NCBI GenBank assembly: GCA_022574775.1
Contig: JACZRI010000006.1
Span: 1 to 42,544 of the forward strand
Direction: 5' to 3'
Length of the DNA: 42,544 nt
From: Patescibacteria group bacterium
Lineage (GTDB): Bacteria; Patescibacteriota; Minisyncoccia; Minisyncoccales; RBG-13-36-15
The notes under the pieces were generated by a model that was not told the origin of the DNA, searched no databases, and saw only the letters and a program-made list of their open reading frames with translations. Positions 22,663-24,611 of this stretch are shown here, in pieces; the stretch's first letter is position 1, and each line of letters begins with the position of its first letter. Made by a program: the position numbers and the translations under genes.

Positions 22663-22692
22663 AAAACCGTTGGGAAAATAACGGTTTTTTTA
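22663..22692 (+). terminator. Rho-independent terminator after uppS
   Basis: AAAACCGTT-gggaaaat-AACGGTTTTTTT. Confidence 0.8.
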
Positions 22693-23742
22693 TTCTTTTA
22701 AATTTTTACCGCTATGGAATTTTCGATGGATATCACGTAATCTTTTATTTGTTACGTGAGTATATATCTGGGTTGTAATAATACTCTGATGACCTAAAAA
22801 TTCTTGAATTGTTCTTAAATCAACTCCTTGTTCCAGCAAGTCCGTAGCGTAGGAATGCCGGATAGTATGAGGAGTAGTGAAAAATGGTACGCCAGCTGAT
22901 ATTGCGTATTTTTTAACGATTCTTTCTATAGAACGAGCCGTAAGACGAGTCTCGGCGCCCTTTTTAGTTCTCTGATTAATAAACAGAGCTTTTTCTTTAT
23001 CTTTGCGGGTTTCCAGGTATTTCTTAAGCCAAGATAAAGCCCTTTCAGAAAAATAAACTGTTCTGGGACGAGCCCCTTTGCCGATAATCCCGAGCTCTAA
23101 TTCTTTTTTATTTCTAATATTAACAAATTGCTCTCGGTTAAGAGCGACTAATTCAGCAATTCTCAAACCAGTAGAGAAAAAAGTCTCCAGAATGGTTCTG
23201 TTTCTTAGCCCGGTTGGGGTTGTAATTTTAGGAGCCAATAGAAGTCTTTCAATCTGTTCTAAACTAAGGAATTTTACAGTTTTCTCCTTTTTAGCATCCC
23301 TGGGAAGGTTAATCTTGCCAGCCGGAAGGGAAAGTATGTCTTTGGCTGTAAAATAGCCTAAAAGAGCTCTTAGAGCGATTAAATAATAGTTCTGGGTCAC
23401 TTTCTTGAGGGGTTTGCCTTTATCGTCCTGAAATCGGGATAGATAAAGCCTGTAACTCCAGATATCATCAGCGGTAAGTTCGTGAGGTAGAAGATTATCT
23501 TTCTTGGTCTTTTTTAACCAATAAATGAATTTCTGGAGGTAGCGATGATAATTCACTTGAGTTTTTTCTGCTAATCCTTTTTCTATTTCGCAATAATCTA
23601 AAAAGTCTGGGATATATTTTATAATACTTTTATTTGATTTATTCATAAGGTAGCTTCTTATAATTTGTTTAAGAGGGGGGTTTGCGAGGTTGTTATATCT
23701 CTCGATTATAGTTGTCGCTTTACCTACATTGTGCGACATCAT
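22690..23742 (-). CDS. Tyrosine recombinase, XerC/XerD-like
   Basis: R-H-R-Y set: FSTGLRIAELVAL, PHTIRHSYATDLLEQGVDLRTIQEFLGHQSIITTQIYTHV; N-terminal SAM-like domain; no IntI-specific insertion seen. Confidence 0.93.
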   Translation of the reverse strand: MMSHNVGKATTIIERYNNLANPPLKQIIRSYLMNKSNKSIIKYIPDFLDYCEIEKGLAEKTQVNYHRYLQKFIYWLKKTKKDNLLPHELTADDIWSYRLYLSRFQDDKGKPLKKVTQNYYLIALRALLGYFTAKDILSLPAGKINLPRDAKKEKTVKFLSLEQIERLLLAPKITTPTGLRNRTILETFFSTGLRIAELVALNREQFVNIRNKKELELGIIGKGARPRTVYFSERALSWLKKYLETRKDKEKALFINQRTKKGAETRLTARSIERIVKKYAISAGVPFFTTPHTIRHSYATDLLEQGVDLRTIQEFLGHQSIITTQIYTHVTNKRLRDIHRKFHSGKNLKE

Positions 23743-24149: not shown

Positions 24150-24300
24150 CAAAAAAAGTTGCCAGGGATAGCCTACCGCTATCCCTGGCTTGAAGAGTAG
24201 GCTGTGTGTGGTGTGCTTTGCCGAAGTCTCTTCCCCTTCCACCTCCTGTATTGCGTCGTGGTTGCCATAAAACCTTCGGATTAGCACCACAGCCAGACTC
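24150..24300 (-). ncRNA. Putative small RNA gene, copy B of a tandem pair
   Basis: - strand promoter TTGACA (24331-24336)-N18-TAATTT (24307-24312) with TGC extension; conserved 5' GTCTGGCTGTGGTGCTAATCCGAAGG; 12-bp terminator hairpin GCCAGGGATAGC/GCTATCCCTGGC plus T tract at 24150-24189. Confidence 0.75.
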
Positions 24301-24340
24301 ACTTATAAATTAGCATAAATTACAAATATCTGTCAAACAA

Positions 24341-24362
24341 AAATCGCCTAAATGGCGATTTA
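24341..24362. repeat. Hairpin repeat E copy 1 (AAATCGCC-taaat-GGCGATTT)
   Basis: Directly upstream of the copy B sRNA promoter. Confidence 0.8.
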
Positions 24363-24406
24363 AAAGCTAAGGTATTCTAGCGGGTGAGATTAGAATTTTT
24401 TTGGCA

Positions 24407-24550
24407 AATAAAAAGTGCCAGGGACAGAGGCTCGAGTTCTGTCCCTGGCTTGCGAAAGGAGGGTAGGCTGATTAGCTTTACCGATGAGATTCAGTGCAGG
24501 AGACTCACTCTGCACTTCAAGCCTTCGGATTAGCACCACAGCCAGACCTA
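24407..24550 (-). ncRNA. Putative small RNA gene, copy A of a tandem pair
   Basis: - strand promoter TTGACA (24580-24585)-N18-TAACTT (24556-24561); same 26-nt 5' block; 12-bp terminator hairpin GCCAGGGACAGA/TCTGTCCCTGGC plus T tract. Confidence 0.75.
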
Positions 24551-24587
24551 CGTATAAGTTAGCATAGATTACAAATATCTGTCAAAT

Positions 24588-24611
24588 AAAAAAACCGCCT
24601 TTTTGGCGATT
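24588..24611. repeat. Hairpin repeat E copy 2
   Basis: AAAAAAACCGCC-ttttt-GGCGATT, directly upstream of the copy A sRNA promoter. Confidence 0.8.

Follow-up and report, generated by a model that had tools for sequence, protein, structure and literature searches.

The Qrr sRNAs of Vibrio comprise several paralogues that share a conserved core, and the parts in which they differ widen the target range; they depend on Hfq and sigma-54. Gram-positive C-rich sRNAs often work without Hfq. In Y RNA and YrlA, a stem is formed by the two ends, and the apical part is variable. LhrC1-5 of Listeria monocytogenes are encoded by multicopy sRNA genes, some clustered and others single, and every copy has a promoter of its own (PMC4132741). 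The sequences of these copies are almost identical, and they form two stem-loops, the second of which lies beside the terminator, and C/U-rich stretches in their loops and linker bind Shine-Dalgarno (SD) regions (PMC4132741).

We analyzed a 42,544-nt stretch of DNA (the window) from a Patescibacteria group bacterium whose genome comprises 702.6 kb in 10 contigs. The sequence-only reading had described a tandem pair of homologous small RNA genes on the minus strand. Both units were found at the position given there, 249 bp apart, and the pair is real, but the term understated the family, as four further copies lie elsewhere in the genome. The features of the two window copies and the positions of the other four are as follows.

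About 24549-24411, minus strand: predicted transcript of sRNA copy A (C9a), with an estimated start 7 nt past the -10
24585-24556, minus strand: promoter of C9a, with TTGACA (24585-24580), an 18-nt spacer, TG (24564-24563) and TAACTT (24561-24556)
24548-24462, minus strand: predicted hairpin 1 of C9a, 5' arm 24548-24532, 3' arm from 24479 (z -2.98)
24524-24485, minus strand: hypervariable apical part of C9a, with its own AGTGCAG/CTGCACT hairpin and a loop with UCUCC
24449-24417, minus strand: terminator stem-loop of C9a, T tract next
24611-24593, minus strand: intrinsic-terminator-like hairpin AATCGCCAAAAAGGCGGTT before C9a
24361-24341, minus strand: terminator-like hairpin AAATCGCCATTTAGGCGATTT between C9a and C9b
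About 24300-24151, minus strand: predicted transcript of sRNA copy B (C9b)
24336-24307, minus strand: promoter of C9b, with TTGACA (24336-24331), an 18-nt spacer, TGC and TAATTT (24312-24307)
24272-24227, minus strand: hypervariable apical part of C9b, G-rich, AGGAGGUGGAAGGGG
24189-24161, minus strand: terminator stem-loop of C9b, T tract next
24083-23925, minus strand: 52-aa ORF after the C9 pair, behind a separate TTGACA promoter and an AAGGAGG leader
C7:112012-112118 and 112157-112288, plus strand: copies C7a and C7b, a second tandem pair with a 145-bp period
C6:54561-54683, minus strand: single copy C6
C1:83921-84051, plus strand: single copy C1

As had been described, the 26-nt block is identical in the two window units, and both have the divergent middle and the CGGyAAAGC...CAGCCTAC motif. 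A search of the genome with the 26-nt block gave two further places beyond the window pair; a second unit beside one of these was recognized by reading the sequence, and the sixth copy was found via a covariance model. As family members in the genome, the two window copies span C9:24411-24552 and C9:24155-24303 (minus strand). With a whole-unit nucleotide profile, the six copies reached E-values of 1e-53 or better, and the next match, a partial one, had 7e-7, a gap that places the six-member family far beyond chance. Judged from the sequence, the six-copy small RNA family is real and apparently new, with predicted RNA lengths of ~105-150 nt.

All six copies share the promoter block TTGACA-N18-TGn-TAAyTT (TGyTAAyTT) that had been noticed in the first two units. 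It occurs in this form only before these six copies, in a search that allowed up to 8 mismatches. The strength of these promoters lies in the -35 and the extended -10 only: the -10 hexamers TAACTT and TAATTT are weak alone and absent from a mechanical promoter scan that needs 4 of 6 positions. As the -10 hexamer is weak, the promoter call depends on a perfect -35 together with the extended -10 and the conservation across six copies. At the other end, each copy has a terminator with a 12-13-bp GC-rich stem (GCCAGGGAyAG.../...CTGTCCCTGGC); in agreement with the proposed 12-bp hairpin with T tract, the stem is 12 bp or longer in both window units. None of the reading frames stays open across the six copies, in line with the earlier view that there is no convincing ORF; C9b alone contains a 29-codon ATG frame. 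Hairpins similar to AATCGCCAAAAAGGCGGTT are present upstream of most copies.

Two other repeats were noted in the intergenic regions. A AAATCGCC-loop-GGCGATTTTT terminator-like hairpin occurs in many of them (C6, C9, C2, C7), mostly followed directly by TTTGACA. The 25-bp element TTCTAATCTCAyCCGCTAGAnnACC is found in three intergenic places (window 24371-24395, minus strand; C1:84536, plus strand; C6:58297, minus strand), with a diverged version after C7b, and its ends form a short inverted repeat.

The predicted RNA starts ~7 nt after the -10, which is the base of hairpin 1. The predicted scaffold of this hairpin consists of the helices GGT/ACC, GGCTG/CAGCC, a variable short helix and GCT/AGC, continues through a 3x3 AAn/yAA internal loop and, in most copies, CCGAA/TTCGG, and then carries the apical part; a short linker connects it to the terminator. 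Without the terminator, hairpin 1 of every copy was more stable than its dinucleotide shuffles (z -2.98, -3.41, -2.84, -4.20, -6.17 and -3.70), and 97.8% of cells pair in the named structure as against 28-49% when the partner was slid. The claim that pairing is preserved between the two window units was borne out for GGCTG/CAGCC, CCGAAG/CTTCGG (copy B) and AGTGCAG/CTGCACT (copy A), all present in the predicted folds, but the accessory pairs differ: C7a has no CCGAA helix, two C-G pairs have become U-G in C1, and C9a has a broken middle helix without the GTGGT pairing. A covariation check on the six copies gave one compensatory pair (the outer G-C to A-U in copy B) and a score that was reached by 73 of 500 column shuffles. 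As the sequence variation is so low, this result neither establishes the fold nor counts against it.

The joint conservation of promoter, fold and terminator also bears on the idea that the copies are DNA-level repeats, that is, recombination sites of a nearby Xer-type recombinase or a small mobile element. The tandem arrangement would fit this idea, as would a tyrosine recombinase gene at 22690-23742 (minus strand, 350 aa), whose product matches XerC/XerD models broadly but below all their curated cut-offs. However, the other copies lie in unrelated places where no recombinase was seen in the stretches read, the copies have no dif-like match, and no target-site duplication was noticed, so that we regard this explanation as highly improbable.

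Genes with an SD leader make up only about 4% of the genes in this genome, and one follows each of the four loci on the same strand: after the C9 pair the 52-aa ORF, for which Pfam and NCBIfam gave no match; at C6 a membrane-protein-like ORF; at C1 an HTH-like ORF; and at C7 a 190-aa ORF. This association is indicative only, because two of the four ORFs were recognized partly by their SD. The setting points to sRNA genes placed among accessory transcription units that are self-contained. It would also suit recently duplicated cis elements, with each unit serving as an insulator or attenuator for the next gene and its RNA having no function in trans, and UCUGGCU of the 5' arm could indeed pair with AGCCAGG of the terminator arm. 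However, the terminator stem is far stronger than this 7-bp alternative, and at C9, C6 and C1 a separate TTGACA promoter for the next gene comes directly behind the terminator. Moreover, two loci contain tandem units, so that the first unit precedes no gene, and the genes after the four loci are unrelated to each other. A role in cis is thus unlikely in our view. As a separate observation, the leaders of several SD genes are alike (C6:52302, 53500 and 34263; C1:84128; window 24083), with GCACATT...AAGGAGG behind TTGACA promoters, as if they had a common origin or regulation.

Mean pairwise identity between the copies is very uneven along the unit. It amounts to 0.98 in the 5' arm, 0.95 and 0.93 in the terminator arms and 0.83 in the promoter spacer, and to 0.68 in the 3' arm plus linker, 0.32 in the terminator loop and 0.30 in the apical part, with 36% gaps. 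In terms of sequence, the scaffold and the putative expression signals are fixed, and the loops are unrelated across the six copies. The loops may be unconstrained or diversified, and we keep both readings because no orthologues were found. If they are unconstrained, the RNAs could act via their constant scaffold, which would bind a protein, the ribosome or the polymerase, and the six copies would raise the dose, a logic comparable to that of sponge or RNP RNAs such as RsmY/Z, 6S and Y RNA. This is the main rival to the reading that we prefer, and it agrees with a conserved part that is the scaffold, with loops that share no sequence and with both scaffold strands keeping their sequence beyond pairing, as in the near-invariant 5' arm. 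On the other hand, it comes without a candidate partner. The predicted folds resemble 6S RNA in being rod-like with paired ends, but they have small internal loops only and no large central bubble, C7a is a short rod, and the 6S model RF00013 gave no match in the genome (E <= 10, controls positive). An end-formed stem with a variable apical part recalls Y RNA and YrlA, but no Ro60/TROVE protein was found in the genome and no Rfam match points to Y RNA. Repeated GGA loops as in CsrA sponges are likewise missing. Overall, we consider action through the scaffold doubtful, if a serious competitor.

With Rfam 15, no family reached its gathering score at the locus, the weak matches in the region are due to chance, and the C1, C6 and C7 copies are also unlisted, which, at the level of sequence comparison, supports the description of the units as homologous, presumably independently expressed and apparently undescribed small RNA genes. 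At gathering scores, the genome scan gave no RNase P RNA, SRP RNA or 6S RNA. Since the tmRNA of the genome lies elsewhere and the SRP model RF00169 matched nothing in it at E <= 10, the statement that the units resemble neither of these RNAs holds. The same scan listed rRNAs, tRNAs, tmRNA and one AdoCbl-II riboswitch.

Conservation outside the contig was found within the genome, where the six paralogues are spread over C1, C6, C7 and C9, but not in other genomes. No true member was detected in 99 relatives, 246 other genomes of the order and samples of the class (392) and the phylum (389), a set that took in three genomes of the same family from other genera and was searched with stricter filters that can miss weak members. 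A direct scan of ~365 kb of G002, a genome of the same family, gave no credible match, and phages, plasmids and viral contigs contained no member. Candidate homologues were discarded: the match in G052 falls in an apparent coding sequence, that in G594 (L201) is merely a look-alike terminator, and the viral matches L023 and L222-L227 are loose, fail the model and are attributed to chance. By sequence, the six-copy family is lineage-restricted as far as the genomes examined show. In L201, from another family of the class, a KGG-like stress-protein gene with an AGGAGG leader (L201:1501-1581, minus strand) has at its end AAGCCGGGGAC...GTCCCCGGCATTTTT, which closely resembles the terminator of the six-copy family.

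The 16S rRNA of the window genome (C5, L155:16030-17535, minus strand) has the tail ...GAAGCTGTCGATGGAACATTACTTTTTTT without the anti-SD sequence CCUCC, and CCTCC after helix 45 was seen in 0 of 17 other readable 16S tails of the order (L183-L200). According to a published survey, organisms with a 16S rRNA that lacks CCUCCU generally also lack a recognizable SD (PMC6107228). When start sites were picked independently of the SD, GGAGG at -16 to -9 was counted in 25 of 660 genes in the window genome (3.8%, 3 expected) and in 19 of 345 genes in G002 (5.5%, 3 expected), so that such leaders are ~6-8 times more frequent than expected in both. The sRNAs do not explain these leaders, because no copy was found in G002. 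One could still imagine that the sRNAs supply an anti-SD in trans for the AAGGAGG genes after the 16S rRNA lost its own, as SD leaders exist and CCUCC is contained in C9a and C6. However, the sequence is absent from the other four copies, and G002 has SD leaders and a 16S rRNA without CCUCC, yet no copy was found there, which makes this idea scarcely credible.

Pairing of the loops with SD leaders in the antisense sense was evaluated with predicted duplexes between the apical parts and 677 leaders, in comparison to 20 shuffles per loop that kept base composition only. In the predicted folds, four of the six copies expose a C-rich loop or linker, namely C9a (UCUCC; linker CUCCUUUC), C6 (UUCCCU), C7a (UUCCCC) and C7b (UAUCCCCGCC); the CCCUC of C1 is paired and C9b is G-rich, so that neither exposes such a stretch. 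The apical part of C9a favors SD-bearing leaders by 2.9 kcal/mol, compared with 1.1 +/- 0.44 for shuffled loops, and that of C6 by 2.4 kcal/mol, compared with 1.6 +/- 0.43, which is marginal. C7a, C7b, C1 and C9b showed no preference beyond shuffles. The best duplex, C9a with C10:14446-14685 (-32.6 kcal/mol), lies about two standard deviations past the shuffled minima, and no single target stood strongly above the rest among the 677 leaders. A model in which C-rich loops pair as antisense with SD leaders is plausible and partly supported by these predictions. As the 16S rRNA has no CCUCC, blocking of the SD may be of less consequence here than it is in Listeria. The partner of C9a is one of two adjacent small SD genes at C10:14446-15114 (minus strand), whose related leaders contain GAAGCTTCGGkGGG. 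Two other pairing schemes were dropped: for a guide RNA, the longest matches of the variable parts elsewhere in the genome are 11-14 nt, none unusually long, and for copy B as a sponge of its C-rich siblings, loop-loop duplexes were no better than shuffles.

Our preferred reading, with a probability of about 0.4, is a lineage-restricted, LhrC-like multicopy family of trans-acting sRNAs of ~105-150 nt that present diversified loops on one scaffold. The scaffold and terminator would stabilize the RNA or bind a common partner, the exposed loop or linker would pair with mRNAs in trans, and each copy would have its own targets, with a single type of promoter for all. For C9a, and possibly for C6, AAGGAGG leaders would be bound by the exposed C-rich stretch, with a change in translation or stability as the result, in the manner of LhrC. 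The family shares with LhrC the layout of multiple copies, each with promoter and terminator. It differs in that only the scaffold and not the whole sequence is alike between copies, in that four of the six copies, rather than every one, expose UCCC/CU-rich stretches, and in that the predicted SD preference exceeds shuffles clearly in one copy (C9a) and marginally in one other (C6); no sequence relation between the two was found. The conserved core with differing parts is reminiscent of Qrr, but Hfq was not found in the window genome and the promoter block is of the sigma-70 type. In a more far-reaching version, one scaffold has been duplicated around the reduced genome, the loops are under diversifying selection, and each loop directs the effector that all copies share to another mRNA or to foreign RNA, in a cell that has no Hfq and whose ribosomes lack an anti-SD; this appears improbable to us.

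Regulatory RNAs of bacteria with such small genomes seem to be little described, and a partial literature collection contained no paper on sRNAs of these lineages. Since AAGGAGG leaders precede a few percent of genes although the 16S rRNA has no CCUCC, one may ask what reads such leaders or blocks them. With its fixed scaffold and changing loops, the six-member family offers a clear case in which to test how post-transcriptional control might be diversified in a reduced genome that has no Hfq.
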